Shown in pieces: positions 1 to 16,250 of a stretch of 23,502 nt of DNA. This stretch comes from a virus: positions 1-23,502 of the IMG/VR virus record IMGVR_UViG_3300025009_000370, one strand, 5' to 3'. Positions within the stretch are counted from its first letter, which is position 1. Each line of letters starts with the position of its first letter. The notes under the pieces were generated by a model, which did no database searches, was not told where the DNA came from, and saw only the letters and a list, made by a program, of their open reading frames with translations. A program made the position numbers and the translations under genes.

Positions 1-885
1 CACCCGTAGATGCGGCAACCTGATGGTCAGCGAGTAGTACTGGCCTGTCACGATCAGTTTGCCGGTGAAGGTGATGTCCATTTTTTTCGGCGTCCCCGCC
101 GCCCAGGCATCGAAAAAAGCATCGTTGGCCGTGTTGTAGCGGGGGAACTTGAGGGTCAGCGACACGGCCGGGAAGCCGTTGTCGTCAGGCTCCGCCACAC
201 CGGCCTGGCCGGCGACCGCCTCGGTATCCATTGGCCTTCCGACGGTCAGCTCGAACCCGGACGGCTTGATCACGTCACCAGCCCCGAGAGCCGCGGCGGT
301 CTGGTCGTTCATTCTGAAGACCGCGGCGCTCTGCATCATGATCCGGTTGCCTTTTGCCACCGTGATGCCCGCCATGGTGGCAACGGTGTTCACCAGGCTG
401 TCGCGGACTAACCGATCACCGGTCAGGTCGAACGATGCCTTGAGCGGCTTATTGGCCTCGCCGGAGAGTTTTAAGCCGTGGATCTTGGCGCTCGGATATT
501 CCCAGGTCTTGTTCGCCAGCTTTTTTTCCGCCAAGGTGCCGAAGAGGCCATAAATCTGGCTGGCCATGTCGATGGTATGACGATAGGCGATGGTGGCGGA
601 GATCTGGGCGACCGAGGCGCTGCCCATCAAGAGCGCCAGCGGCAGGCCGAGGCCATCATAGCGGGCATACATCTCGATGTTGCCGGCGCAGGTCATCTCG
701 CCGGGATCGGTGTCGGTGACCCACGGCTGCCCGGCGGAATCGTCGTCCTCCATTTTGATCGCCGGCTTGATGCCGTCGGAGAGGAGCAAGAGCCCGTTCC
801 CCGCTCCGCATGCCGCCGCCGTTCCCCAGGTGGTTCCTTTCTTCAGGCCGCAGACGAATTCTCGGCCGGTTATTTCATTCGCCAT
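1..885 (-). CDS. phage tail tube-like protein (partial, 3' end cut by window)
   Basis: At least 295 residues are visible; the frame is still open at base 1, so the C-terminus lies outside the window. The start is an ATG at 885 with GGAGGA a few bases upstream. The N-terminus (MANEITGREFVCGLKKGTTW) and the following Gly/Ala-rich stretch resemble tail tube proteins of the type found in siphovirus-like and Mu-like phages. Such proteins polymerise into the hollow tail tube through which DNA passes. The gene directly follows a putative tail-completion gene in the late operon, which fits a tail role. No sheath gene lies between it and the head genes. The family assignment rests on the N-terminal pattern and position and is moderately sure. 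Confidence 0.6.
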   Translation of the reverse strand, partial: MANEITGREFVCGLKKGTTWGTAAACGAGNGLLLLSDGIKPAIKMEDDDSAGQPWVTDTDPGEMTCAGNIEMYARYDGLGLPLALLMGSASVAQISATIAYRHTIDMASQIYGLFGTLAEKKLANKTWEYPSAKIHGLKLSGEANKPLKASFDLTGDRLVRDSLVNTVATMAGITVAKGNRIMMQSAAVFRMNDQTAAALGAGDVIKPSGFELTVGRPMDTEAVAGQAGVAEPDDNGFPAVSLTLKFPRYNTANDAFFDAWAAGTPKKMDITFTGKLIVTGQYYSLTIRLPHLRV

Positions 886-900
886 TTAGGAAATTCCTCC

Positions 901-1332
901 TTAAATAAGTTCCCGTTCCAGGGTGTAGATCATGGTCCGGACCAGCTTGACTATCCATTGCTTGTTCTCGGCCTGGAACATTTCCGTCGGCCGGTCCGGG
1001 CCGATCTCCACCTTATCGATGTCGGCCAGCCCGAGATCGTTGTGCATGAGCAGATCACTGGCATCGTCCATGAACTGGTACAGCCCGGTAACCGCCTCGC
1101 CGCCGTCGGCGGTCATCCTGACGAAGGCGGCCAGCTCGACCCGCATGGTCAGCTCAAGCACCCCGCTTGCCTGTTCCTCCCGTATCACCCCGCCGTCCTT
1201 GATACCGAGGCACGACTGCCTGGTCCCGGTCGGCATGTAGTTGACATGGGGAGTGATATAGCAGTCGCTCCGCCTCGGCAGCTGGGGCAGGGTCTGCAGT
1301 ACGTTCTTGATGGCCGGGAGCAGGGTCTGCAT
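901..1332 (-). CDS. putative tail completion/terminator protein (gp37-like position)
   Basis: A 143-residue soluble protein with no membrane segment. The ATG at 1332 has AAAGGA upstream, and the preceding gp36 gene ends at 1333, so the two are translationally adjacent. It lies between the gp36 homologue and the tail-tube gene. In Mu-like and siphovirus late operons this slot holds a small head-tail joining or tail terminator protein that caps the tail and binds the head connector. I do not recognise a signature motif, so the role is inferred from size and position only. Confidence 0.45.
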   Translation of the reverse strand: MQTLLPAIKNVLQTLPQLPRRSDCYITPHVNYMPTGTRQSCLGIKDGGVIREEQASGVLELTMRVELAAFVRMTADGGEAVTGLYQFMDDASDLLMHNDLGLADIDKVEIGPDRPTEMFQAENKQWIVKLVRTMIYTLERELI

Positions 1333-1758
1333 TTAAATGTCCTTTAAAGTCTTCCGCGAAAAGAGCCGATCGGGGCCTGCGAAGACCGCCGCCGAACTGC
1401 CGGCGGCGGCCTTCTCTTCGCCGCCCAGGGTCTGCTTGCCGGTCGAAAGCCGCTCAAGGGTCTTGACCGCTTCCCTGTAGCGATCCTTCCTGTTCTCCGG
1501 CACCCCGCTCGCATCGAGCGAGTAGAGGTTCCAGATGGCGATGTCGACGGCCAGCGTCGAAAGCAGCGGCTGAGACCCGGCAAGCGGCAGTTCATAGCGA
1601 TCGTCAACAGCGAGATAGCTGTCGATCTCGACATCCGCCGCTTCCAGGGCCGCCTCGATGGTGGCGGTGTTGACCAGGCCGCTGTCCGCCTCATCGGTGA
1701 GGCGGATCAGCTCATCCTGGGTGATCCGCTTGTTCAGATCGTCGACTGTGGCGTACAT
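1333..1758 (-). CDS. Mu gp36-like head-tail joining protein (DUF1320)
   Basis: 141 residues. The N-terminus (MYATVDDLNKRITQDELIRL) followed by an acidic helical region (roughly residues 20-60, ending in a YELPL-type motif) is the typical pattern of phage gp36/DUF1320 proteins. In Mu these are encoded just after the capsid gene and are thought to act in head completion or head-tail joining. The C-terminal 30 residues are Ala/Gly/Lys-rich and likely flexible. An AAGGAATAAGCG leader supports the ATG at 1758. It sits in Mu order after gpT and the FluMu-type gene. Confidence 0.8.
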   Translation of the reverse strand: MYATVDDLNKRITQDELIRLTDEADSGLVNTATIEAALEAADVEIDSYLAVDDRYELPLAGSQPLLSTLAVDIAIWNLYSLDASGVPENRKDRYREAVKTLERLSTGKQTLGGEEKAAAGSSAAVFAGPDRLFSRKTLKDI

Positions 1759-1761
1759 CGC

Positions 1762-1986
1762 TTATTCCTTTTTGTCCGGTTCGGCCGGGGCGGTTTTTGC
1801 TTCCTTGCCTTTTTTACCCTTTTCCGCCGGCTCCCCTTCCGAAAGAACGACCGTGAGCATGGGCTCATCCTGCAGGGCGGCAAGTTCCTTTTTGCTGAAC
1901 GTATCATCCGCATAGCTTGTCGGGGCAGTCGAGTGAGCGATCCCGCACCGCCGAAAGCCCTCCTTTTTGCTGATTATCGTGACCAT
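1762..1986 (-). CDS. Mu-like FluMu N-terminal domain protein (gp35-like)
   Basis: 74 residues. The first ~50 carry the pattern of the Mu-like prophage FluMu N-terminal domain (KKEGFRRCGIAHS, then an F-x-x-x-E-L-x-x-L segment and a P-M-L-x-V motif). The last ~25 are a charged Lys/Glu/Pro tail that is probably disordered. Homologues sit directly downstream of the major capsid gene in Mu-like prophages; their biochemical role is not established. SD AAGGAG lies before the ATG at 1986, and the gp36 gene follows after 3 bases. Confidence 0.75.
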   Translation of the reverse strand: MVTIISKKEGFRRCGIAHSTAPTSYADDTFSKKELAALQDEPMLTVVLSEGEPAEKGKKGKEAKTAPAEPDKKE

Positions 1987-2058
1987 CGTTTTCTCCTTAT
2001 GTTCAAGGCGTGAAGGAAAAAACCCTCACGCCGATTCATCTCTCGGGCCGAGCTTGAA

Positions 2059-2952
2059 TTATGCCAGCCAGGGCACCTCGATCAGCTTGACGCGGTTGAA
2101 GTTGGTGTTGGACTCGCCGCCGGCGAGGTTCTGGGCGGTGATGATCTTCCGGGCCTTGCTGGCGTTCGACGGACCGACCGCCAGGAGGCTCGGCACCACC
2201 CCGAGGGGTTTGCCGGAATCGCCCTTGAAGGCACCCATGGCGTCATAGGCCGCCTCGAAGTTGGTGGCGTCCAGTGTCGCCTTGGAGCCGAAGGCCATCT
2301 GCCAGAAGCCGAAACCGACGTTGCAGCGGCTGTCGACGCCGTAGAGCAGCTTCTTCTGCATGAAGACATTCTGGTCGGTCTCCTTATCGAGGGCCACGAA
2401 GTTGGCCTTCTTCCGATCCTGGAAGATGATCGGCTTCAGGGCCCGACGGGTATCGAGGAGGAACCAGGGACTGCCGGCCCCTGCCTGGACGTTGTTGACC
2501 GAGGCGACACTGCCGTCAGCCTGGATCACCGGATGATCTGAGTCGAAGAAATACTGGCCGTCGTAACAGGGGGTAGCAAAGCCCGAGGCCATCAGCCCGA
2601 AAACGAGCACGTCCGGATGCACCTTGCCGTTCTGGCCGAGCATCTCGAACATCGGCGCATAGATGCCGTACTGATCGTCCTCAATGTGGTCGCGATTGAC
2701 CCCCACTGTGGACTCGAAGGACTTGTTCTTGATCGTGTAGCCGTGCTGCTTGAGATTGTTGATCTGCCGATCGCCGATCCATTCGCGCATGCCGGGAATG
2801 TCCCCGAGCCAGCCGTAGTCCTCGATCGCCGTGGACGACGGGACGGTGGTGGCCACCTCCTGATACATCGACGGGGCCCCGTCGAAACCTTTCTGGAACG
2901 ACGCCTTGAAGGCCCTGTTGAGAATTGCCAAATTGCCGCTATTGAGAATCAT
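2059..2952 (-). CDS. T: major capsid protein, Mu gpT family
   Basis: 297 residues, close to the usual gpT length. The N-terminus (MILNSGNLAILNRAFKASFQ) and the segments GWLGDIPGMREWIGDR (about 48-63), FESTVGVNRDHIEDDQYGIY (about 79-98) and YFFDSDHP (about 134-141) are typical of Mu-like prophage major head subunits. The protein forms the icosahedral shell. It follows the protease/scaffold and decoration-like genes, the conserved head order of Mu-like phages. SD AAAAGGAG precedes the ATG at 2952. Full length and intact. Confidence 0.92.
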   Translation of the reverse strand: MILNSGNLAILNRAFKASFQKGFDGAPSMYQEVATTVPSSTAIEDYGWLGDIPGMREWIGDRQINNLKQHGYTIKNKSFESTVGVNRDHIEDDQYGIYAPMFEMLGQNGKVHPDVLVFGLMASGFATPCYDGQYFFDSDHPVIQADGSVASVNNVQAGAGSPWFLLDTRRALKPIIFQDRKKANFVALDKETDQNVFMQKKLLYGVDSRCNVGFGFWQMAFGSKATLDATNFEAAYDAMGAFKGDSGKPLGVVPSLLAVGPSNASKARKIITAQNLAGGESNTNFNRVKLIEVPWLA

Positions 2953-2998
2953 ACTGCTCTCCTTTTGTGAATTGTGGTATCGCCGAAACTGGTCCCTG

Positions 2999-3409
2999 TT
3001 ACCTGAAGTCTACCCAGACGCCCAGAGCGTCGACGTCGAAGACCTTGCCCGCCACCGATCTGGTGCTGGTGCCGTTGGTTTTGGCGACCGTCTGATCGTC
3101 GACGATGTAGCAGTCGTTGCCGATGTCGGCCCGGGCAATCAAATCGCCCGACGCCGAGTTGCCGAAGCGGAAGATGCCCCTGTCGATCGGCACCGCAAGA
3201 TCCCCGGCAGCTCCTCCCGAGTTGTCCACCGTTTCCGCCGCCCGGCCGACGCCGCGCAGGGTGGTCGCTACCGCGCCCGGGGTGGCGTTGCCGCTCGCGT
3301 CCCTGGCGACCAGGGATCCGGCGTAAATTTTCTTTGCCGCCGCAACGGGCAGGCTGAGATTACTGCCGCCTCTCTCGACGGTATCGCGGTCTGCTGTCAG
3401 TGCTGCCAT
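2999..3409 (-). CDS. putative capsid decoration/stabilisation protein
   Basis: 136 residues rich in Ala, Gly, Val and Asp, with no Cys-rich or membrane segment. The pattern (SLPVAAAKKIYAGSLVARDA near residues 18-37, then repeated GVGRA and DRGIFRF strands) looks like the beta-rich small proteins encoded between protease/scaffold and capsid genes in Mu-like and other tailed phages. Many of these decorate the capsid (DUF2190-like). AAGGAG lies upstream of the ATG at 3409. Function is inferred from position and composition. Confidence 0.55.
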   Translation of the reverse strand: MAALTADRDTVERGGSNLSLPVAAAKKIYAGSLVARDASGNATPGAVATTLRGVGRAAETVDNSGGAAGDLAVPIDRGIFRFGNSASGDLIARADIGNDCYIVDDQTVAKTNGTSTRSVAGKVFDVDALGVWVDFR

Positions 3410-3453
3410 GATCTACTCCTTTTTTGAATGTGACTTTTTCCCCGCCGAAACTC

Positions 3454-3945
3454 TCAGCAGGCCGTTTTCTTGAAGTCTTCTTCGCTGATGCCAAGGGCCG
3501 CGCAGACTTTCTTCTCCTCGGCGTTGAGGGCGGTTTTGGTATCGTCCGCCTTTTTGCCGTCCAGGCCCGACTCGCCGCCGATCGCCGGCGCCGCCTTGCA
3601 GTACTCGGTGAACCGGGCAAGCCCGCCTTCCTGCCGGCACTGGGCCTTGTGGTAGTCGGCGGTGGCCGGGGTGATCTTGCCGTCTTTGAGGGCCTGGTCG
3701 ATGGCGGCGTTCACGGCGGTTTCGAGTTGTTCATCCTTCACCGTCTTGAGGGCCTGTTCGGCATTGGTGGCTCTCGCCAGCGCCCCGTCGTAATCGCCCC
3801 TGGGCACGAACTTCGCAAGACTCGGGTTCTCGGCCCGATTGTTGGCGGTCGAAACTTCATTTTTCAGTTCCTTGATTTTGGCCACCGCGTCTTCTTCGGT
3901 GGCGGTCTCCGGCAGCCCCAGGGCCACGAGAATTGATTTCAGCAT
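3454..3945 (-). CDS. nested in-frame scaffold protein (Mu gpZ-like) from an internal start
   Basis: Within the gpI gene an in-frame ATG at 3945 is preceded by AAGGAGGAAGCA, a near-ideal Shine-Dalgarno with good spacing, although it lies deep in coding sequence. Translation from it would give a 163-residue protein (MLKSILVALGLPETATEEDA onward) made of the helical, charged C-terminal half. In Mu the scaffold gpZ is made from an internal start in gene I in the same way. The strong SD is seen directly; use of the site is inferred. Confidence 0.7.
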   Translation of the reverse strand: MLKSILVALGLPETATEEDAVAKIKELKNEVSTANNRAENPSLAKFVPRGDYDGALARATNAEQALKTVKDEQLETAVNAAIDQALKDGKITPATADYHKAQCRQEGGLARFTEYCKAAPAIGGESGLDGKKADDTKTALNAEEKKVCAALGISEEDFKKTAC

Positions 3946-4431
3946 TGCTTCCTCCTTGTTTGCGGGGCTTGCTGGCCCCAGCTGACTATTGAGCGCCGGC
4001 AGCACCAGGTTCGGCTGGTTGGTCAAACCGACCGAAGTGAGCCCGACGATGATGCCGCTGTCGCGGTTGTAGACGATCACCGGGCTCACATACCGGTAAG
4101 CCCGTTCGCCGATAAGTTTTTTGCCTTCCGGGTTCCAGTCCACCCGGCCCCAGATCTCACCGTTGCGCACAGCCAGTTCTGTTACCCAGCCTACCGCCGG
4201 CGCCGGCTCGCCCAAGGGTGCCTTCAGTTCGCTGCTATGCTCGATGTCGAACGGCAGATCGCGGGCGAGCGCGGTGAAGGCCGCGAGGATCCCCTCCGGC
4301 TGACTGTTGAGCCAGGACCGCCCATCACGGCCGGCGGCCTGGCCTGCCGGAATAAGCTGTATCCATTCCGGGGCCTCGCCGGGGGCGGCCTGTAGTTCAA
4401 TGGTATTCAGGGCGATCGCGCCGCGTTTCAT
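3454..4431 (-). CDS. I: prohead protease/scaffold, Mu gpI family
   Basis: 325 residues starting at the ATG at 4431; the frame is open further upstream, but this ATG overlaps the TGA of the gpG gene as ATGA, the normal join in this operon. The N-terminal half resembles Mu gpI-type head maturation proteases (IQLIPAGQAAGRDGRSW, then FDIEHSSELKAPLGEPAPAV with the catalytic-type His-Ser pair, then GRVDWNPEGKKLIGERAYRY and a SPVIVY segment). The C-terminal ~160 residues are helical and charged, as in a scaffold. The protease cuts scaffold and head proteins during capsid maturation. A nested scaffold start is listed separately. Confidence 0.85.
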   Translation of the reverse strand: MKRGAIALNTIELQAAPGEAPEWIQLIPAGQAAGRDGRSWLNSQPEGILAAFTALARDLPFDIEHSSELKAPLGEPAPAVGWVTELAVRNGEIWGRVDWNPEGKKLIGERAYRYVSPVIVYNRDSGIIVGLTSVGLTNQPNLVLPALNSQLGPASPANKEEAMLKSILVALGLPETATEEDAVAKIKELKNEVSTANNRAENPSLAKFVPRGDYDGALARATNAEQALKTVKDEQLETAVNAAIDQALKDGKITPATADYHKAQCRQEGGLARFTEYCKAAPAIGGESGLDGKKADDTKTALNAEEKKVCAALGISEEDFKKTAC

Positions 4432-4886
4432 AACAAGTCTCCTATGAGGATGTATTCTTCCAGCTGCTCCGTGATATCCGGCCAATCCTCATCCTGGACC
4501 ATGAGGTAAGGCCTGGCCGGGATCGTCACCTTGTGGCCCCGCCCGGCCTGGCCGCCGAACTGGTGGATGGCGCCATACTTTTTGTCAGTGCCGACCATGA
4601 CGGAGTTGTTCTCGGGCTCGGAATGGATCGAGCCCATCAGCCCGCCGGCAAAGCCCTTGCCGATGAGGATCTTGCCGCCTTTCTTCATGGCCAGCGTCAC
4701 CGGTGAGAGCTGCTGCCAGCCGTTCGGCCGGCCGCCGTCCTGGAAGTTCTCGACCACGGAGGACTTGACCGTCTCGCCGATGATCTGCATGGCGGGCAGC
4801 AAATTGCCGCAGCGCTTGGCGATCGCCGCCAGTGCGCTTGTCATCTGGCTGTCATCTATCTTTATGCGGATCGTCGTTCCGGCCAC
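4428..4886 (-). CDS. G: virion morphogenesis protein, Mu gpG family
   Basis: 152 residues. The motif series GGRPNGWQQLSPVT (about 52-65), GKILIGKG, L-x-x-S-I, VGTDKKYGAIHQFGG (about 98-112) and IPARPYL near residue 123 is characteristic of phage virion morphogenesis proteins of the gpG/tail-S type. In Mu gpG acts in late head-tail assembly. The start appears to be a GTG at 4886, with CAGGAG six bases upstream. The stop overlaps the gpI start (ATGA). A 111-base noncoding gap separates it from gpF. Confidence 0.85.
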   Translation of the reverse strand: MAGTTIRIKIDDSQMTSALAAIAKRCGNLLPAMQIIGETVKSSVVENFQDGGRPNGWQQLSPVTLAMKKGGKILIGKGFAGGLMGSIHSEPENNSVMVGTDKKYGAIHQFGGQAGRGHKVTIPARPYLMVQDEDWPDITEQLEEYILIGDLL

Positions 4887-4997
4887 TTGTAACTCCTGTC
4901 AACCTGAGGTACTATTTTGTTTACGGTTATGGCGATTGAGCCGCGAATCGATAATCGCCGTACAGTGTGTGAGGATGTCGTGGCATCCTCCGCTGTC
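4887..4997. other. F-G intergenic segment with two short hairpins
   Basis: This is one of the few noncoding gaps in the late operon. It holds a 7-bp stem GAGGATG/CATCCTC (4971-4977 with 4984-4990) just after the gpF stop and another GGCGATT/AATCGCC (4931-4937 with 4953-4959). Neither is followed by a T-run on the minus strand, so they do not look like strong intrinsic terminators. They could be RNA-processing or stability elements. Confidence 0.4.
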
Positions 4998-6233
4998 CTA
5001 TTCCTTCCGATACACAAGCTTCCCCGACCGTTGGTCATTGAGATATTTGCCCTGCTTGGTCGGCAACATCGTCCAGGCCTCCAGCCAGCCATCCTTGACG
5101 TCCGCGACAATCAGGATCGCTTTTTCTTTGCCCAGTCCCAGAACCTTGACGATCCTTTGCCGCAGGATCACCTTGCCCGTCCCTATATGCCTTTCGAAGC
5201 GTATCCAGACCTCTTGCGGATCGGTCAGCACTTCGGGGATGAACGGTAAAAAGGGACTGCGACCGGGATCGATATGACTGCCGAGAACCTCCGCATTGAC
5301 CAGCAGGTCATAACGGAACCCATCCGTTGCAAAGCTGAAGATTTTCTCCTCTCCGCCGAGGATTTCGGTTAAGGCGGCCACCGTGGCTTCTTTGTTCGGC
5401 AAAGTCGGGCCAAGCTTCGCTTCAGGCTGGGCCGCCGGCAATGTCGCGGGCAGGCCGCTGGTCATCCAGTCGCCGGGCGTGAGCTTCTCCCAGGCCTCTC
5501 CCTTCATCGCCTGATATTCCTTCATCGCATTCTCGGACAGCTTCCGCCCCCAGGCGGCCTGGCCGGGGCTATAATCCCAGCCGGGATCGATGCCGATCGG
5601 CACCTGGCTGACCTCGCCGGTCTTCTTGTTCACGTACTCGTAGGTGCCTTCATCCGGAGCCTCGGTCCGCAGCTTATCCTTGTTGCGCTGATATGCGGCG
5701 TTGCTCATGGTCGTTCTGCCGCACTTGCACCCCCAGCCGTTCGGCGGATCGTGTGTCTTCCACCAGGGATCGTCATGGCGGAGCACGATGCCGTACCACC
5801 GCATATGCTCTTTGCGCTGGTGGTCAGAACTGGACGGCATGTATTTCCACCAGGGCCGCACCGCCAGCACGGCCGGTTCGGTGCTTGCGGCATAATGCCC
5901 GGCGCTGTAGGCGGTGGAGAGATTGGTGTCGAAGATCACCGCCGTCCGCCAGTCCCGGCCGCCGTTGTACTGCCAGCCGTGTTTCTCGATGGTCTTGTCG
6001 AAGTCTTTGCGGAAGTCGGCAAGGGTCGTGCCCTGGCTGATCGCCTTGTCCACCGCGCCCCGCAGATCCGCGAGCAGCTGGCTCTTGGTCGCTCCGGCGA
6101 CGACAAAGGCCCGGCTGTGCATCCCGCGTGAGAGATCGTCCCATTTCTTGGTCGGGAGACTGACTTTATCCCGGAAGAAACGGATCGCCTCATCGAAGGG
6201 CAGGTTGAGATATTCGGCGGATGGTGCGGTCAT
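4998..6233 (-). CDS. F: head morphogenesis protein, Mu gpF/SPP1 gp7 family, with C-terminal PBECR-like nuclease domain
   Basis: 411 residues. The N-terminus (LPFDEAIRFFRDKVSLPT, about 11-28) and the segment HMRWYGIVLRHDDPWW...THDPPNGWGCKCG (about 143-172) are diagnostic of the Mu gpF/SPP1 gp7 minor head protein fold. These proteins enter the capsid near the portal. After a linker (about 230-285), residues ~290-411 form a compact beta-rich domain (FRYDLLVNAEVLGSHID, WIRFERHIGTGKVILRQRIVKV, LGKEKAILIVADVKDGWLEAWT) that resembles the phage Barnase-EndoU-ColicinE5/D-RelE-like (PBECR) nuclease families often fused here. No clear SD is seen before the ATG at 6233. Nuclease activity is inferred, not shown. 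Confidence 0.8.
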   Translation of the reverse strand: MTAPSAEYLNLPFDEAIRFFRDKVSLPTKKWDDLSRGMHSRAFVVAGATKSQLLADLRGAVDKAISQGTTLADFRKDFDKTIEKHGWQYNGGRDWRTAVIFDTNLSTAYSAGHYAASTEPAVLAVRPWWKYMPSSSDHQRKEHMRWYGIVLRHDDPWWKTHDPPNGWGCKCGRTTMSNAAYQRNKDKLRTEAPDEGTYEYVNKKTGEVSQVPIGIDPGWDYSPGQAAWGRKLSENAMKEYQAMKGEAWEKLTPGDWMTSGLPATLPAAQPEAKLGPTLPNKEATVAALTEILGGEEKIFSFATDGFRYDLLVNAEVLGSHIDPGRSPFLPFIPEVLTDPQEVWIRFERHIGTGKVILRQRIVKVLGLGKEKAILIVADVKDGWLEAWTMLPTKQGKYLNDQRSGKLVYRKE

Positions 6234-6348
6234 GACGGATATATGTTTAAAACATGTTTAATTTTTTCTGTGCTGGACGCACCGGACCGGGTCCGAGGGT
6301 TGGGGCGCGTCGGGCAGCAAATGCGAATTTGGGCATTCTCGCGCGTTT
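6234..6348. other. portal-gpF intergenic segment
   Basis: 115 noncoding bases between the portal stop and the gpF start. It contains the 10-bp palindrome AAACATGTTT in an AT-rich patch next to the gpF start, then a GC-rich stretch towards the portal gene. No convincing terminator or promoter is seen. The lack of an SD for gpF makes the AT-rich patch a possible unstructured initiation region. Confidence 0.3.
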
Positions 6349-7923
6349 TCATTTTTCCGCCTCTTCGCCTGCGTCAAACCGGCCGGCCAGGTCGGCCAGA
6401 ACCATCCCCCGCTGCAGCAGGTTGCCGAGTTCGGCGCCATCCATTTTCGGGTACAGCTCGATGAACCGGTCCCGGAACTCTTCGAGGCTCGCCACTTCAT
6501 CCAGCAACTGCCGCATCGGGGCGAGCAGGGGATCGAGCGCCGCCTCCCGGGGCAGGGCGTTCAGGATCTCCACCGGATGGGGCTCGGTTTTGTCTTCCTG
6601 ATTGGAACTCCGTTCCTGCCGATTCTGGGCCGTCTCGGTGCCGGGCTGCTCCGGATCGGCGCCCGGTTGCACCTGGGTGGCCGGCGCCTGCAGGCATTTT
6701 GCTCCTGGCGCTGGGTCGGGCAGGCCGAGCTTGTCACGCACCACCGACTGCTCCACCTCCAGGCCCATGGGGACCAGATCCTTGAGGGCGGTGGTCAGTG
6801 CGACGATGTCCTCTTTTTTCGGCTTCCGGATAAACAGCTCCGGATAAATCTCCCTGGGTCCGAAGTTGAGATCGATGAAGGGCCGGACCAGATCGCGGTT
6901 CAGGGTCTCAGCCAGTTGGACGGCATCGTCGTCCCTGATATCCTCTCGTACCTCGGCCTGGGCATCGTCGCCACCGAGCTTGCCGGGCGTGCCCACCGTG
7001 GTGGCGGTCTGGCCGAGGATCCCCCGGCTGACCTGGGCATCGAGATAATCGGCCAGCTTGTTGAACAGTTCATGACCGCCGGTCGACTTGGAACTCTCGG
7101 CGAATTCGATCTTCATCGAATCGGGGAAGACGGCCGCGGCGTCACTGCCGAGGTTGGCCACCGCCATCTTCAGGATGGCGATATCGTCGTCGCTGGCCCC
7201 CGACTGATACTTGCCCACCCGGAGCGGCATGCCGAAAATCTCGGCGAAGGCCATCCAGTCTTTCAGCGTGTAGTTCTTGAACATCCAGGCCCAGGCCGCG
7301 ACGCGGGCAATGCCGCCCCGAATCGGAATGCCGGTCTTGAGATGCGGCAAGTGGGTGATGAACTTGTACGGGGCCAGCGGGATGCCTTCCGCCAGGTTCT
7401 CCGCATCGAGCAGGCGGATGGTTCGCCTGCTCACCCGGTCGAAGGTGAAGAAGCGCGGATCGCGCCATTCGTAGCAAGTCGGCGACCATTTCACTCCACG
7501 CTGCCAGATGATTTCGACAACCGAGTAGCCTTTGGCGAGCGCATCGAGCAGATCCTTCAAGAGGCCACGGAACCCGGCCATCTTGACCATCGCCCGCACT
7601 TCGTCGGCCAGATTCACGTCCTCCGCCTTGTCGGTCGCCGCTTCGACGATGATGGGAAGGGAGGCCGCCGCCAGCTTCCTCTTGCCGATCTCGCAGCGAT
7701 AGTGGAGGTCTTTTTCCTCCATCTCTTCGGACAGAGTCAGGTAATCGTTCGGATCGCCTTCGGCCGCGCCCCTGAGGATGGCGGCGAGCCGTACCGGGGT
7801 GAGCCCTCCGGCAACGGACTGGTCCCAGACGGTGCGGATGCCGGTGAGGGCGGGGGCCGCGTGCTCGCTGGTCAAGGCTTTCGTTTTGACCGGGTTGCCC
7901 CGGTGATCGTAGATGGTCACCAT
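6349..7923 (-). CDS. portal protein, Mu gp29 family (DUF935)
   Basis: About 524 residues, the usual size for DUF935 portals. Recognisable segments include NDYLTLSEEMEEKDLHYRCE, IVEIIWQ-type and FDRVSRRTIRLLD patterns in the first 200 residues, GGIARVAAWAWMFKNYTLKDW and FAEIFGMPLRVGKY near the middle, and FNFGPREIYPELF-like text further on. The portal forms the dodecameric ring through which DNA is packaged. The ATG at 7923 gives a TGATG overlap with the terminase stop and an 8-base spacing from AGGGGG; an ATG at 7929 is possible but sits too close to the SD. It lies in Mu order between terminase and gpF. Confidence 0.88.
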   Translation of the reverse strand: MVTIYDHRGNPVKTKALTSEHAAPALTGIRTVWDQSVAGGLTPVRLAAILRGAAEGDPNDYLTLSEEMEEKDLHYRCEIGKRKLAAASLPIIVEAATDKAEDVNLADEVRAMVKMAGFRGLLKDLLDALAKGYSVVEIIWQRGVKWSPTCYEWRDPRFFTFDRVSRRTIRLLDAENLAEGIPLAPYKFITHLPHLKTGIPIRGGIARVAAWAWMFKNYTLKDWMAFAEIFGMPLRVGKYQSGASDDDIAILKMAVANLGSDAAAVFPDSMKIEFAESSKSTGGHELFNKLADYLDAQVSRGILGQTATTVGTPGKLGGDDAQAEVREDIRDDDAVQLAETLNRDLVRPFIDLNFGPREIYPELFIRKPKKEDIVALTTALKDLVPMGLEVEQSVVRDKLGLPDPAPGAKCLQAPATQVQPGADPEQPGTETAQNRQERSSNQEDKTEPHPVEILNALPREAALDPLLAPMRQLLDEVASLEEFRDRFIELYPKMDGAELGNLLQRGMVLADLAGRFDAGEEAEK

Positions 7924-9269
7924 CACCATGTCCCCCTGGCGGCGCCGAAGCCTGCCGTGGTTTTGATCGCCCGAGTCTCTCGGTCGTCATTCATTTCGCG
8001 TTTTTTGACCGGGTGGTAGGCGTATTCGATCGTCTGCCCGTGCCCCGCATTGGCGGCGAGAAACTTCGCCCAGGTCCGGTCGGCATGGCCGCTGCTGTCG
8101 CTCTCGGCGATAAAGCGCGGGGTGCCGGTCGGGCCGACGATTTTTTTCAGCTTATGCAGATCGGCTCGAAGAACCTTGTCGCCCATGGCGATCCGACACT
8201 TGCGGTTCTCGAACTGCTCCTTGCCGAGGGTCGCCATGATCAATTTGTTCGGAGCGGTGAAAAGCACACCCTCGATCCGCGAACCATAAAGGGCCTGCGC
8301 ATCCTGCACCGGCTTCTCGCCCATGCCGGTCTGGTCCATGCAGCAGCGGACCACCTTGTAGCGGGCGAACACTTCGGCCAAAAGAGCATCCTGCTCGGCA
8401 AAGCTGATCCGTTTCTTGGCAATGATCTCGCGGTTCCAGAAGACATCGCCGACCAGCTCATCAACCCAGATAACAAAGAGGTCGTTACGGGCGCCGATAT
8501 CCACCCCGACGTAGCATGGGCCACCGCCGTACAGTTCGGGCCGGCCGGCCAGATCGTCCTCGCAGCCGCTGATCAGTTCGAAACTGAGCCAGGCGGAGGC
8601 CTCGTCCAGCCACTTCAATTCATATTCCTGAGCCCAGGCGTCCTCATCGCCGAGGGCGGTGCGCAGCTCCTCGATATCGCGGGGCAGACCATCGGCCACC
8701 GCCTGATAGATATCGGTGGTCTGGCGGTACCAGACCGGATCGATACCGGTCATCAGGTCGTAGAACTTATTGCCCTTGCCGTTCGGGGTGGAGACCACCC
8801 GCAGCCGGTGTCCGGCGCTGATCACCGGGAAGAGGGCGGTCCAGATCTTGCGGCTGTCCTGATGAAAGGCAAACTCATCCAGGAAGACATTGGCGGAAAA
8901 GCCGCGCGCGGTGTCCGGATTGGCGGGCAGGGCGGTGATCTTCGAACCGTTCGGGAACTCGACCTCCAGGGCGCGGTAGCTGGCCCCGTCGGTGCGGTAA
9001 TCGCTTTCATGGCTCTTAACCAGCGAGCCCAGGGCCTGGCAGTGGCGTTTCACCCCTTCCTCGATCGCTTCTTTCGCCTGGCGCTCGCCACGGCTGAGGA
9101 TCACCCAGCGCATCCGCTTGCCGCCGAGATCCGCCAGCTGACAATCGCTGGCGATCTCGAAGGTCGTGGTGAAGGTCTTGCCGGTCTGGCGGGCGAACAT
9201 GCCGATCTTGAAGCGGCTGTCGTTGCCGGCCCAGCGTTGCTGGTATGGATAGAAGATTTCAGATCCCAT
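7923..9269 (-). CDS. terminase large subunit, Mu gp28 family
   Basis: 448 residues. The ATPase half has a Walker A-type motif ARQTGKT (26-32), Walker B VFLDE (128-132) and a coupling motif STPNGKGN (160-167). The C-terminal nuclease half has YVGVDIGARND with Asp257, CMDQTGMG with Asp312 and SGHADRTW with Asp397, the three acidic residues of an RNase H-like fold. It drives ATP-dependent DNA packaging through the portal and cuts the host-phage DNA at the end of headful packaging. It overlaps the small terminase by 11 bases. Complete, no defects seen. Confidence 0.92.
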   Translation of the reverse strand: MGSEIFYPYQQRWAGNDSRFKIGMFARQTGKTFTTTFEIASDCQLADLGGKRMRWVILSRGERQAKEAIEEGVKRHCQALGSLVKSHESDYRTDGASYRALEVEFPNGSKITALPANPDTARGFSANVFLDEFAFHQDSRKIWTALFPVISAGHRLRVVSTPNGKGNKFYDLMTGIDPVWYRQTTDIYQAVADGLPRDIEELRTALGDEDAWAQEYELKWLDEASAWLSFELISGCEDDLAGRPELYGGGPCYVGVDIGARNDLFVIWVDELVGDVFWNREIIAKKRISFAEQDALLAEVFARYKVVRCCMDQTGMGEKPVQDAQALYGSRIEGVLFTAPNKLIMATLGKEQFENRKCRIAMGDKVLRADLHKLKKIVGPTGTPRFIAESDSSGHADRTWAKFLAANAGHGQTIEYAYHPVKKREMNDDRETRAIKTTAGFGAARGTW

Positions 9270-9864
9270 AGACCTTGCGTATCTCCGCCTGCAGTTCTTC
9301 CGGGGTCATCGCCCGATTATCTTCGGCCTGGCCCAGGCCGGCATCCTTTTGCTGCAATTTCTCCAACAGCTCCATGGCCTGCTGCAGTTCTTTAATCGCC
9401 GTCAAGTTAATTGTCCCCGGCTGAGACAGCAGCAGCGCCACCTTGTTTTTTATCGCCTGACTGAGCCCCTGGACCATGTCAATGGGTTGCCCTTCCTGTG
9501 CCGGTTCTGGTTGGGTGGCTGTGGCCGCGGGACTCTGCGCCCGCTCCCGCGCCTCCTGGTCCAGCGCCTTGCCGCTGCTGACCAGGGCGGAAAAGGCATA
9601 GGCCTTCTGCGCGTCTTCGGTCTCGATGACCGATTCAATCAACTTGGCTTTCGCCAGCATCACCCCGCGCCGAACCGAAGTCTGCGCCTGGCGGTATTCG
9701 CGCCGGCGGTCACTCCAGGACGGGGTGCTGTCCATTCCCCAGCGTTTCAGCTGGGAGATGGAGACGCCGGTTACCTCGGCCACCTGCTCGTAGGTCCGGC
9801 CGTCTATTATATAGAGCTCCTCGGCGGCCTCGCGGACCTCCCATGAATACGACTCGGGACTCAT
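9259..9864 (-). CDS. terminase small subunit, Mu gp27-like (DUF1804-type)
   Basis: 201 residues. Residues ~8-45 form a helix-turn-helix (VREAAEELYIIDGRTYEQVA, then EVTGVSISQLKRWG), the DNA-recognition part of a small terminase. The middle is helical and the ~115-130 region is a Pro/Gln/Ala-rich linker. The C-terminus (MTPEELQAEIRKVYGI) is the typical end of this family. It would recognise the phage end and recruit the large subunit encoded directly downstream. It overlaps the preceding gp26-like gene as ATGA. Confidence 0.8.
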   Translation of the reverse strand: MSPESYSWEVREAAEELYIIDGRTYEQVAEVTGVSISQLKRWGMDSTPSWSDRRREYRQAQTSVRRGVMLAKAKLIESVIETEDAQKAYAFSALVSSGKALDQEARERAQSPAATATQPEPAQEGQPIDMVQGLSQAIKNKVALLLSQPGTINLTAIKELQQAMELLEKLQQKDAGLGQAEDNRAMTPEELQAEIRKVYGI

Positions 9865-10115
9865 ACAATCCCCAGGGCCTTCTTCATGTTGGCGATCTCG
9901 GCCAAGAGGCCAAGATACTCGGCGTGTTTGCCGGCAAGCTCAACCGCCTGGACCGCGGCCTGCTGGGCTTGCAGCTCCACGATCGGGGCAAAGGGCGGCA
10001 GCAGCATCCGGACCGTCGCGACATCGCCCTCGATCGACAGCGCCAGGTTGCGGGCATCCGCCTCTTTCACGGCCAGCCGGCCTCGTATGGTCAATCTTTC
10101 GGTATCAAACACCAT
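9861..10115 (-). CDS. Mu gp26-like small late protein
   Basis: 84 residues, Ala/Val/Leu-rich and mostly helical at the C-terminus. It occupies the slot of Mu gp26, just before the terminase pair, and its stop overlaps the small terminase start (ATGA). It begins inside the end of the preceding gene (11-base overlap) with AAAGGGG upstream. No known catalytic motif is visible; the function of this position in Mu-like phages is not well defined. Confidence 0.6.
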   Translation of the reverse strand: MVFDTERLTIRGRLAVKEADARNLALSIEGDVATVRMLLPPFAPIVELQAQQAAVQAVELAGKHAEYLGLLAEIANMKKALGIV

Positions 10116-10563
10116 TTCTGCGGTCCCCTTTGGTTATTGGGCAAAACATGTTGTTTTCGATTTTTTCGACCAGCTTGGTCATTACCTGGGTGCTCATATG
10201 GATGATGCCGGCCAGCTCGTTGGCGAGCTTCTGATAGTTCTCGACCAGCAGCACATTGCTCTCGTAATTCCGGACGACCGCCTCGAAACGCTTGTCCTGC
10301 TGGGAGATGATCTGCATCATCTGGCGTTTGAATTCGGCCATCTCTTCCTGGTGCCGGGCCTCGGTCCTGCCCCGTTCTTCGACGATCTGCGACTGGCGGA
10401 GACCATCCGCCTTGACCGCCTCCAGCCGCTCCCGCTCGGAGCGTCGGTGGTCGGAGTACATAAAGGCCATGATCAGGCTCGGCCCGCCCATGCAGATAAT
10501 GATGATCCCCGGCGCACCGAGGGTCTTGATGATGGTATCAAGCAGTCCAAGCTCAGGATTCAT
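10105..10563 (-). CDS. Mu gp25-like membrane-anchored coiled-coil protein
   Basis: 152 residues. One hydrophobic segment (about 15-35: LGAPGIIIICMGGPSLIMAF) is followed by a long charged coiled-coil (about 40-110). This single N-terminal TM plus periplasmic or cytoplasmic helix recalls an inner-membrane spanin, and it lies close to the lysis genes, but no embedded lipoprotein (o-spanin) frame was recognised. It matches the position of Mu gp25. The ATG at 10563 directly follows the TAA of the upstream gene. Confidence 0.55.
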   Translation of the reverse strand: MNPELGLLDTIIKTLGAPGIIIICMGGPSLIMAFMYSDHRRSERERLEAVKADGLRQSQIVEERGRTEARHQEEMAEFKRQMMQIISQQDKRFEAVVRNYESNVLLVENYQKLANELAGIIHMSTQVMTKLVEKIENNMFCPITKGDRRNGV

Positions 10564-10776
10564 TTACCTTGCCTTCTCCCATAGTTGCTGGCAATCCCTG
10601 CACCGGGTGCAGCCGGGGGCGGCCAGCCTGCGCCCTGCCGGTATCTCGTAGCCGCAATCCTCGCAGTGGGTGTTGCTCAATGTCGAGTTGCGGGTGTTCT
10701 CTTGCCGCCATATGTCTAACGCCTGCTGCTGGTAATAGGCGTCCAGATCCTGGGCGCGGTCGAACTGATCCGGCAT
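10564..10776 (-). CDS. TraR/DksA family C4 zinc-finger protein
   Basis: 70 residues. Cys38, Cys41, Cys59 and Cys62 form a C-x2-C-x17-C-x2-C zinc finger (CEDCGYEIP then CTRCRDC), the signature of short TraR-type DksA homologues. TraR mimics DksA plus ppGpp by binding the RNA polymerase secondary channel and altering promoter choice. Such genes are common in Mu-like late operons. The acidic N-terminal helix (MPDQFDRAQDLDAYYQQQAL) fits TraR. Start and upstream stop overlap as TAATG. Confidence 0.85.
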   Translation of the reverse strand: MPDQFDRAQDLDAYYQQQALDIWRQENTRNSTLSNTHCEDCGYEIPAGRRLAAPGCTRCRDCQQLWEKAR

Positions 10777-10934
10777 TACTTGCCAAGAGCCTTCTCAATT
10801 TTATGGCCGATGCCGACCAAGGCCAGCGCCGCGATGATCTGCTGCATGCCGGACTCGGTGTCGCCATTATAGATACTCACCACGCCAAGACCGGCCGTAC
10901 ACGCGGCGGCGAGCCATGTTTTCCAACCTTTCAT
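10776..10934 (-). CDS. small holin-like membrane protein
   Basis: 52 residues starting at the ATG at 10934, which overlaps the transglycosylase stop as ATGA and has GGGAG upstream. Two hydrophobic stretches (about 8-22 and 31-44) separated by a short polar turn, and a Lys-rich C-terminus, suggest a small two-helix membrane protein. Sitting immediately after the endolysin gene, a holin or lysis-timing role is likely. The frame is open further upstream but that part is out-of-frame shadow of the endolysin gene. Confidence 0.6.
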   Translation of the reverse strand: MKGWKTWLAAACTAGLGVVSIYNGDTESGMQQIIAALALVGIGHKIEKALGK

Positions 10935-11371
10935 TTGCCGCTCCCTTGCGCTATCCCGGCGACGATCGATTGCCACTGATCGCCGGGAAACATCCGCCCG
11001 CAAGCACGCTCCTGGGCGCGGACGATATGGCCCGGCCCGGCATTGTATGAGCCGAGCATGAAGCGGATCCGCTCCCGGCCGCGCTCCGCCTGCCAGATGT
11101 CGAAGCACTTGCGGTCATAGGCTATCCCCAGACGGATATTGACGTGCGGGGTGAGGATGGTGCCGTCTTCGCCGGGGTATCTGGCCGCCATCTCGGCGGC
11201 GGTGCCCGGCATGAGCTGCATGACGCCCATGGCCCCGGCCGGCGATACCGCCTCCGGATTCAAGGCGGACTCGACAATGCCCTGGGCCTTAAACCACAGC
11301 CAGTGCAGCCGGCCGCCGAAGAACTCCTGGGCGGAGCGCTGGAAGTATTGGTCGTAACAGTTGGTGTCCAT
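10931..11371 (-). CDS. lytic transglycosylase endolysin (SLT family)
   Basis: 146 residues. It shows the soluble lytic transglycosylase core: catalytic Glu34 in QGIVESALNP, GVMQLMPGTA (about 49-58), an NIRLGIAY segment (about 78-85) and SYNAGPGHI (about 108-116). It cleaves peptidoglycan between MurNAc and GlcNAc. There is no signal peptide, so export would depend on the adjacent holin-like protein. It is the first gene after the candidate late promoter and has AGAGGA before the ATG at 11371. Confidence 0.88.
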   Translation of the reverse strand: MDTNCYDQYFQRSAQEFFGGRLHWLWFKAQGIVESALNPEAVSPAGAMGVMQLMPGTAAEMAARYPGEDGTILTPHVNIRLGIAYDRKCFDIWQAERGRERIRFMLGSYNAGPGHIVRAQERACGRMFPGDQWQSIVAGIAQGSGK

Positions 11372-11465
11372 CTTCTTCCTCTGAATGTTGCCGAATCCAG
11401 GCAGCCGGAGCGGGCCGCGTGCGGACCGTCCCGGCTGTCAGTCGGAGAGCAGAATGCCAGTCACC

Positions 11466-11510
11466 GTTATATGGGGTTTTGAGGATGGGGGTAAGGCTGA
11501 GTTGTTTCAG
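11466..11510 (-). promoter_or_regulatory. candidate Mor/C-dependent late promoter
   Basis: On the minus strand there is a good -10 hexamer TATAAC (11471 to 11466) but only a poor -35 (TTACCC) at 17 bases. Just upstream lies the dyad CTGA-N6-TCAG (11497-11510). If transcription starts near 11460, the dyad centre falls at about -43.5, where Mu Mor binds its middle promoter. A weak -35 with a good -10 is typical of activator-dependent promoters. It would drive the lysis and head genes. Confidence 0.55.
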
Positions 11511-11512
11511 GT

Positions 11513-11537
11513 GGGGGGTTGCGGGGAGGGTGAAGGG
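11513..11537 (+). other. G-quadruplex-type motif
   Basis: Four runs of three or more G with short loops: GGGGGG-TTGC-GGGG-A-GGG-TGAA-GGG on the plus strand, which is the template strand for the minus-strand late transcript. Two more G-runs lie at 11473-11476 and 11487-11491. The pattern meets the simple G3N1-7 rule; folding is inferred. Confidence 0.5.
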
Positions 11538-11560
11538 ATCGCGCGGGCGCGCGATCCCTT
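11533..11560. repeat. perfect 13-bp GC-rich inverted repeat
   Basis: AAGGGATCGCGCG (11533-11545) and its exact reverse complement (11548-11560) are separated by GG. It lies 13 bases downstream of the start-less frame on the minus strand. There is no minus-strand T-run after it, so it may be a Rho-independent-like block without a tail, an RNA 3' end, or a protein site. Confidence 0.7.
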
Positions 11561-11573
11561 TGTTGAGGTTGGC

Positions 11574-11759
11574 TCAGATCAGCTCACGAGCCTGGTCGAT
11601 GGTTTTATTGATGTTGTCGAAGATCAGGCCCAGGCCGAACGCACCTTTTTCGGTGATGCCGTCATACTGGCCGTCGTGGGCCAGGGCCGGCGCAACAGCA
11701 CCAGCAGGCCTTAAAAGAGTCGCAACTGTCTGTCCTCGCCAGGCTCCTGGCCGAGGATG
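11574..11759 (-). pseudogene. start-less reading frame after mor (possible secreted-protein remnant)
   Basis: The frame is open from just after a TAA at 11760-11762 to a TGA at 11574-11576, but it has no ATG, GTG or TTG. Its last ~45 codons look like real protein: an AGAVAPALA stretch with an AxA-type signal-peptidase site, then HDGQYDGITEKGAFG and FDNINKTIDQARELI. It overlaps the end of mor in the -1 frame. It could be the mature part of a small exported protein whose start was deleted, or be reached by -1 slippage at the CTC TTT TAA end of mor. Confidence 0.4.
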
Positions 11760-12034
11760 TTATAGACGTGCCGTTCGGACAGGCCATACTTCCTGGCCAG
11801 GTCGACAACCGACACGCCGCCCTTATCGTATTCCGCCCGGATCTGCCGATCGCGCCACACCACCAGCCAGCGGCGATGGCCGTACAGCCGGGCAGGCGTC
11901 CCGTCGAACAGCTCGGATATCTGCAGCGCCAGCCGCACCCCGACCTTTTCGGCGAGCATGCGCAGATCGCCCTTTAGCTCAACCACCGCAGGCAGGGCTT
12001 CATCCGGCAGTTTATCGATGGTGTAGCTGCTCAT
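11711..12034 (-). CDS. mor: Mor/C family transcriptional activator of middle/late genes
   Basis: 107 residues from the ATG at 12034, which overlaps the GemA stop as ATGA and has GGGAG upstream. The N-terminal half (LPDEALPAVVELKGDLRMLA, then VGVRLALQISELFDG) is the dimerisation region of the Mor family. The C-terminal half (GHRRWLVVWRDRQIRAEYDK, then VSVVDLARKYGLSERHVYNIL at about 75-94) contains the DNA-binding helix-turn-helix. In Mu, Mor activates the middle promoter and its homologue C the late promoters. No second family member is seen here, so this one may act directly on the late operon that starts just downstream. Confidence 0.9.
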   Translation of the reverse strand: MSSYTIDKLPDEALPAVVELKGDLRMLAEKVGVRLALQISELFDGTPARLYGHRRWLVVWRDRQIRAEYDKGGVSVVDLARKYGLSERHVYNILGQEPGEDRQLRLF

Positions 12035-15683: not shown

Positions 15684-16250
15684 TTATTCTTCCTCCATGG
15701 TTTGCAGTATTTGTCTGACTTCGCCGAGAGCCGTAGAAATGCTGTCGAGCTTGGTTATCATCCGCTTCTTCTTCAGGCGGATGTTGCGCAACCTGGCCGC
15801 CTTATCCTCATCCACCGGCATCTCGGCGCTGTCGTTGATCAACACCCACAGGCCCGCCTTCCCCGGCTCCTGGATCTTGCGGGCCACCTCTCGCCGGACC
15901 AAGATCACCAGCCATTGCCGGGCATAATCCCGGCTGACGCCGGCCATCTCCATCAGGTCGTCAACCGTCACCCGGCGCCGCATCTTGAGCAGCCGCCACA
16001 TAACTTCGCGCTTGTCCGGCTCGGCCGGGGTTGCTGTCGGCAAAGGGGGGCCGTAGACGCCCTGGCGGATGCGCCGCAACTTACCTTCTCCGGTCAGCTC
16101 GCCAAGAGTATTGAGCATCCTTTTATGCTCTTTCCTGTTCATGATCATCAACAGGGTGGAAAGACTATCGGTGGTTACCTCGCCTGATTTTTCTTTGCTG
16201 ACCTTTAGCGCCATAAGGAGGACATCTTTCCTAAACGATTGATGTGCCAT
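15684..16250 (-). CDS. putative winged-helix DNA-binding protein
   Basis: 188 residues. Residues ~20-70 (GEVTTDSLSTLLMIMNRKEH, ELTGEGKLRRIRQGVYG) and ~80-135 (REVMWRLLKMRRRVTVDDLM, EMAGVSRDYARQWLVILVRR, GLWVLIND) look like two winged-helix or helix-turn-helix units. The C-terminus (about 145-188) is a charged coiled-coil. It follows the MuB gene after four bases. It may be a regulator of the early or middle genes; no named family assigned. Confidence 0.55.
   Translation of the reverse strand: MAHQSFRKDVLLMALKVSKEKSGEVTTDSLSTLLMIMNRKEHKRMLNTLGELTGEGKLRRIRQGVYGPPLPTATPAEPDKREVMWRLLKMRRRVTVDDLMEMAGVSRDYARQWLVILVRREVARKIQEPGKAGLWVLINDSAEMPVDEDKAARLRNIRLKKKRMITKLDSISTALGEVRQILQTMEEE

Follow-up and report, generated by a model that had tools for sequence, protein, structure and literature searches.

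The window, by which we mean the whole 23,502-nt (23.5-kb) stretch of DNA analysed, had a Mu-like layout of the B3 type on the minus strand, with a Mu-type transposase C-terminal domain, an AAA ATPase, GemA, Mor, a transglycosylase and head genes. The genes from the transglycosylase through the tail tube were tightly packed on the single strand. The features considered here were the following.

11711 to 12034, minus strand: Mor-family activator gene, 107 aa (PF08765, 36.1 bits, cut-off 24.9)
11533 to 11560, minus strand: 12-bp stem-loop that resembles a terminator but lacks a T-run, situated between mor and the dyad (-24.4 kcal/mol, z -6.9)
11497 to 11510, minus strand: predicted Mor-family dimer binding site, dyad CTGA-AACAAC-TCAG (from sequence and conservation)
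11466 to 11471, minus strand: TATAAC as the -10 element, with 25 nt separating it from the dyad (24-26 nt in relatives)
11459, minus strand: predicted transcription start, placed solely from the -10 element
11402 to 11437, minus strand: leader hairpin CAGCCGG...CCGGCTG, between the predicted start and the ribosome binding site
10931 to 11371, minus strand: lytic transglycosylase/endolysin, first gene of the late operon (PF01464, 1.4e-17; phrog_669 endolysin)
1 to 10934, minus strand: rest of the late operon, with a small membrane protein, DksA/TraR zinc finger, Terminase_6 and Portal_Mu, continued by MuF, Mu-like protease, gpT capsid, gp36 and tail tube

TATAAC lay at 11471-11466 of the minus strand, and the perfect dyad CTGAAACAACTCAG at 11510-11497 (CTGAGTTGTTTCAG in the plus-strand reading of 11497-11510). 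The hexamer 17 nt upstream of TATAAC was TTACCC, which agreed with TTGACA at three of six positions and offered no usable -35. The TGn of an extended -10 was absent at TATAAC, and a consensus scan reported no sigma-70 promoter on the minus strand at this site. The first-pass annotation had described the same TATAAC, poor -35 and perfect CTGA-N6-TCAG dyad, and all were present where it had placed them. Its centre for the dyad, near -43.5, was close: if the -10 occupies -12 to -7, the centre falls at -44.5, one base off that of Mu Pm. The DNA upstream of the dyad, CAACCCCCCAC, was C-rich and did not provide the A-rich partial UP element of Pm.

CTGA-N6-TCAG occurred once within the whole window. 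The chance expectation was 0.39 per window, and at least one copy was found in 34 of 100 window shuffles, so the dyad was not significant from the window alone. It was raised above chance by its conservation in relatives.

The window, itself a fragment, held one Mor/C-family gene, in agreement with the earlier statement that it was the sole such gene here. As regards an N-terminal dimerisation domain and a dimer, its match to PF08765 spanned only profile positions 25-92 of 107. The Mor family profile matched the structures of Mu C (9l0x, 1.4e-6) and Mu Mor (1rr7, 6.3e-5) in the C-terminal part, where the helix-turn-helix resembled those of both proteins. The single Mor protein as query found no match among the genome contigs, and an alignment query found the relatives. 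Near-full-length close relatives, including records of 34-38 kb, contained exactly one Mor/C gene each and not the two per genome of the Mu cascade; the Mu control gave two. Mor was found in the site-bearing records examined, the exceptions being fragments that ended upstream of the site. One near relative (L200) was integrated in a Desulfobulbaceae metagenome-assembled genome, and Mor genes of the window type were present in 34 of 258 Desulfobulbales genomes.

Directly after mor, at 11585-11710 on the minus strand, was an open frame without a usual start that looked like a truncated gene remnant. In G014 an intact protein of 71 aa (L156:12618-12833) matched it in its C-terminal half, and so did small proteins encoded by L018, L204 and L205.

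The check that the first-pass annotation had proposed, conservation of the dyad before the transglycosylase gene in relatives, gave a positive answer, which extended to other endolysin types. The near-relative dyads consisted of CTGA, then AACAAC, AGCAAC, AGTAAT, AATAAA or AACGTC, then TCAG. Variants were CTGC-AATAAC-TCAG; CTGA followed by AGCCCT or ACTGCT and then TCAA; and CCGA-AATGCT-TCGG, in which both arms had changed symmetrically relative to CTGA..TCAG. In L202, L203 and L205 the upstream half-site was well kept and the other half was not. The spacer between mor and the lysis gene varied among relatives, with other genes inserted; the dyad and the -10 were nonetheless kept, and the centres of the lysis-operon sites fell at -43.5 to -45.5. 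Among nine relatives, pairwise identity was 95% for the arms, 70% for the six inner bases and 62% for the DNA immediately downstream; at 20-60 bases upstream of the dyad it was 27%, the chance level.

A profile restricted to the 18-bp dyad region was applied by leave-one-out, the tested dyad being excluded from training. Of the 13 related sequences, each with 11,000-76,000 scored positions, 10 had the true site at rank 1; in the remaining ones it ranked 3, 6 and 10. A profile of dyad plus -10 gave one outstanding site per near relative (24-36 bits, the next independent site at about 10-15), located ahead of the lysis gene. The exceptions were G014, with two high sites, and L195/L203, with a second site at 17.8. 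In the window, the late-promoter site scored 35.6 and the runner-up 11.1. A scan of 11 whole records for perfect 4-bp dyads of any sequence, 23-26 nt ahead of TATAWN, gave 11 hits, of which 6 were the late-promoter site. Weaker dyad matches elsewhere in the genomes were discounted as chance.

A held-out set of 29 prophage loci was picked by Mor homology alone, and the DNA downstream of mor was taken. About half of the loci had convincing sites, mostly ahead of lysis-type genes, in which shifted dyads (CCGA..TCGG, GTGCA..TGCAC, GGGCA..TGCCC) lay about 24 bases before the -10. The sites are given below, with downstream gene types assigned by inspecting translations rather than by Pfam scans.

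L275: CTGCAACGCTTCAG, transglycosylase downstream
L269: CTGCAACGCTTCAG, M15-like endolysin downstream
L266: CCGAAATGCTTCGG, transglycosylase downstream
L252/L253: CTGCACCCCTGCAT, transglycosylase downstream in L253
L255: ATGCACCCCTGCAG, M15-like endolysin downstream
L258: GTGCACCCCTGCAC, transglycosylase downstream
L259: GGGCAACGCTGCCC, transglycosylase downstream
L276: CTGCAACGCTGCAG
L270: CTGAAACGCTTCAG
L264: CTGAAACCGTTCAG, lysozyme-like (GH24-type) gene downstream
L256: CTGAAGTCCCTCAG, lysozyme-like (GH24-type) gene downstream
L260/L261: CTGAACCGCCACA(C/G), lysozyme-like (GH24-type) gene downstream in both

No clear site emerged from about half of the 29 loci, some of which have little downstream sequence, and looser rules added one doubtful case (L262). 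Because several of the sites were picked after looking, the gap count was the fairer test. When dyads before TATAW were counted at gaps of 0 to 60, the peak was at gap 24, with 6 hits against a mean of 1.34, and five of the six look real. The recognition helices differed where the dyads differed (SLRRIKQIL in L259, STRQIENIL in L266, GVRRVWDIL in L258), in a raw comparison that ignores shared ancestry.

Some relatives had a second site. In G014, CTGAAACGTCTCAG occurred twice, ahead of a SleB-type hydrolase gene (PF07486) and ahead of a separate module of unknown function. A SleB-type hydrolase was the gene behind the late promoter in both G014 and L185. The two G014 dyads were identical at 14 of 14 positions and the ten upstream bases were 80% alike, with the downstream flanks at 27%, the chance level. 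Identical dyads with unrelated downstream flanks fit one trans-acting binder. A second dyad was also present in G008, L194, L195, L193 and G010, before a homologous module. The second Mor-type dyads before the unknown-gene module (MxDKIGVPTGHIGTGS...) were located as follows.

L156, 12914 and 16368
L194, 5401
L195, 5798
L193, 4756

The matching -10 of the second dyads in G008, L194, L195, L193 and G010 was inside a hairpin, with a long T-run afterwards in three of them. In several relatives with a second dyad, the -10 was embedded in a terminator-like hairpin.

Downstream of the predicted start, a stem-loop was present in every near relative folded and in most held-out loci. In 13 records, 96.9% of the cells in the arms paired, a figure favoured upward because the arms were hand-aligned from predicted folds. 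Two-sided changes were seen in five of ten pairs, and the covariation score was reached by none of 500 shuffles. The leader stems averaged 12.6 bp, and stems in random stretches taken from the same contigs 7.5 bp. In the window alone the leader folded with only modest z scores, -2.1 (hairpin) and -0.7 (whole leader), and an Rfam search with the hairpin returned nothing above threshold. This conserved leader hairpin was unreported in the material searched. Its identity as an intrinsic terminator was rejected for most records, a T-run after the stem being rare (exceptions L015 and L259). In L015 (G009), upstream of 2732, the transglycosylase leader hairpin together with six T made a full terminator-like structure that separated the promoter from the gene; the late-promoter dyad of this record was the shifted form CTGCACCCTGCAT.

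The stem-loop at 11533-11560 probably ends early transcription. Relatives carried stems at the equivalent place, with a T-run in some (G003, L185), and a consensus terminator scan listed none at 11533-11560 in the window. Because this stem-loop has no T-run, read-through into the late genes is possible.

We interpreted the site as driving late transcription in a Mu-like transposable phage with relatives in Desulfobulbales; judging from sequence comparison, a single Mor-family protein probably activates the lysis-head-tail operon there. The early transcript would cross the transposition genes from right to left, reach mor and probably halt at the 11533-11560 stem-loop. The only Mor-family protein of the phage would then bind CTGA-N6-TCAG near -44 as a dimer, substituting for the -35, and recruit the host sigma-70 RNA polymerase to TATAAC. 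The lysis-head-tail transcript would then begin, its leader folding as a hairpin. The late genes would thus probably be switched on by one activator, as against two in Mu. The first-pass annotation had Mor acting directly on the lysis/head operon. What stands of this is a Mor-type promoter ahead of the operon, with a conserved dyad, a fixed spacing, a single Mor/C gene and one site; direct action by Mor is what these elements predict.

The dyad could instead be a chance inverted repeat, the late genes being served by read-through from the early promoter or by a Mor-independent promoter. The occurrence of CTGA-N6-TCAG in about a third of the shuffles (34 of 100) would agree with this, as would the possible read-through at 11533-11560. 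The conservation already disfavoured this explanation, and we considered it very improbable: the arms are conserved well above the flanks at a fixed spacing, the change to CCGA..TCGG is symmetric, G014 has two identical dyads, and the held-out dyad profile placed the true site first in most sequences (10/13). Binding of the dyad by some other regulator from phage or host, for example a late-stage activator or a repressor of a different family, with Mor acting elsewhere or indirectly, is quite unlikely. The early region does encode several small unassigned proteins and HTH regulators, but the position, the spacer length and the loss of the -35 all match the Mu Mor site (PMC4390567). Moreover, Mor accompanied the site except in fragments ending upstream of it, and different recognition helices (L259, L266, L258) went with different dyads.

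The promoter might also be activated by Mor but only as a middle promoter, the distal head and tail genes needing a second activator outside the fragment, as in Mu. Genes past the ends of the 23.5-kb fragment are unseen, and several relatives have a second dyad before another operon. On the other hand, the 34-38 kb relatives carry one Mor/C gene only, a single strand holds the packed genes from transglycosylase to tail tube, and the window has no other good-scoring site. This suggested that a purely middle role is unlikely, and that one Mor-family protein probably serves the whole late operon.

Phage Mu is the textbook two-activator cascade. At Pm, Mu Mor recognises a 16-bp element that extends from -51 to -36, has its centre at -43.5 and consists of two 5-bp repeats around a 6-bp spacer; this element replaces the -35, and a proximal UP element helps (PMC4390567, PMC4287176). 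The Mor paralogue C acts at the Mu promoters Plys, PI, PP and Pmom (PMC4461284). The window promoter shared with Pm a dyad with a 6-bp spacer near -43.5, a -10 with neither -35 nor extended -10, and an activator from PF08765. It differed in preceding lysis/head genes, whereas Pm precedes the C operon; in its 4-bp arms (5 bp in Pm) and AACAAC spacer (G/C-rich in Pm); in having no A-rich UP element, a feature of Pm that is maybe not general to Mor promoters; and in being followed by the conserved leader hairpin. Its layout was like that of Pm and its position that of Plys. With Plys, PI, PP and Pmom it would share the driving of lysis/morphogenesis genes by a Mor/C-family dimer just upstream of the -35 region, but with one gene in place of both Mor and C, and one main promoter in place of four.

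One 'late regulator Mor/C' is conserved in Mu and B3 (PMC8705779). The B3/D3112-type phages (PMC8705779; NC_006548, NC_005178) shared with the window one Mor/C gene per genome and Mu-like head genes, and the terminase of B3 was related to that of the window. D3112 differed in having no matching dyad after mor, and inspection by eye of the spacers of D3112, FP_Mushu and Pasteurella phage AFS-2018a gave no convincing dyad. No paper mapping the Mor target in a single-Mor phage, B3 and D3112 types included, was found in a library search that covered few subscription journals.

The single activator had been described earlier as a merging of the Mor-then-C cascade of Mu. This was unsupported as worded, because the single-activator state is widespread (one Mor/C gene per genome was also the count for B3, D3112, FP_Mushu, phage B23 and AFS-2018a) and the wording presumes that Mu is ancestral. 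The Mor-then-C pair of Mu may be a duplication, with Mu the derived case. The reverse of merging, in which the single-gene state is ancestral, is at least as likely.

A more tentative possibility is that the late switch is a cassette, in which a Mor-type dyad promoter and a structured leader with its own regulatory role are kept as a unit while the endolysin is swapped, and that some relatives have a second Mor site whose -10 is inside the early terminator. The role of the leader might then be protection, processing or antitermination. With the second-site -10 inside the early terminator, the late RNA of some relatives would start within the hairpin that stops the early RNA.

Many Mu-like phages have one annotated 'late regulator', its target unreported in the papers searched. 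For the Mor/C family, the site, its spacing and the dyad variants paired with recognition-helix changes are now concrete. This makes direct one-protein late activation and family specificity testable with short DNA and a small protein.

Two other genes of the window drew attention. The MuF head protein (4998-6233, minus strand) had a C-terminal PBECR2 nuclease-like domain (PF18810, 1e-17), a toxin-like fusion. An early gene (15684-16250, minus strand) gave a weak match, below the cut-off, to an AbiEi_4 antitoxin-type regulator (8.5e-4).
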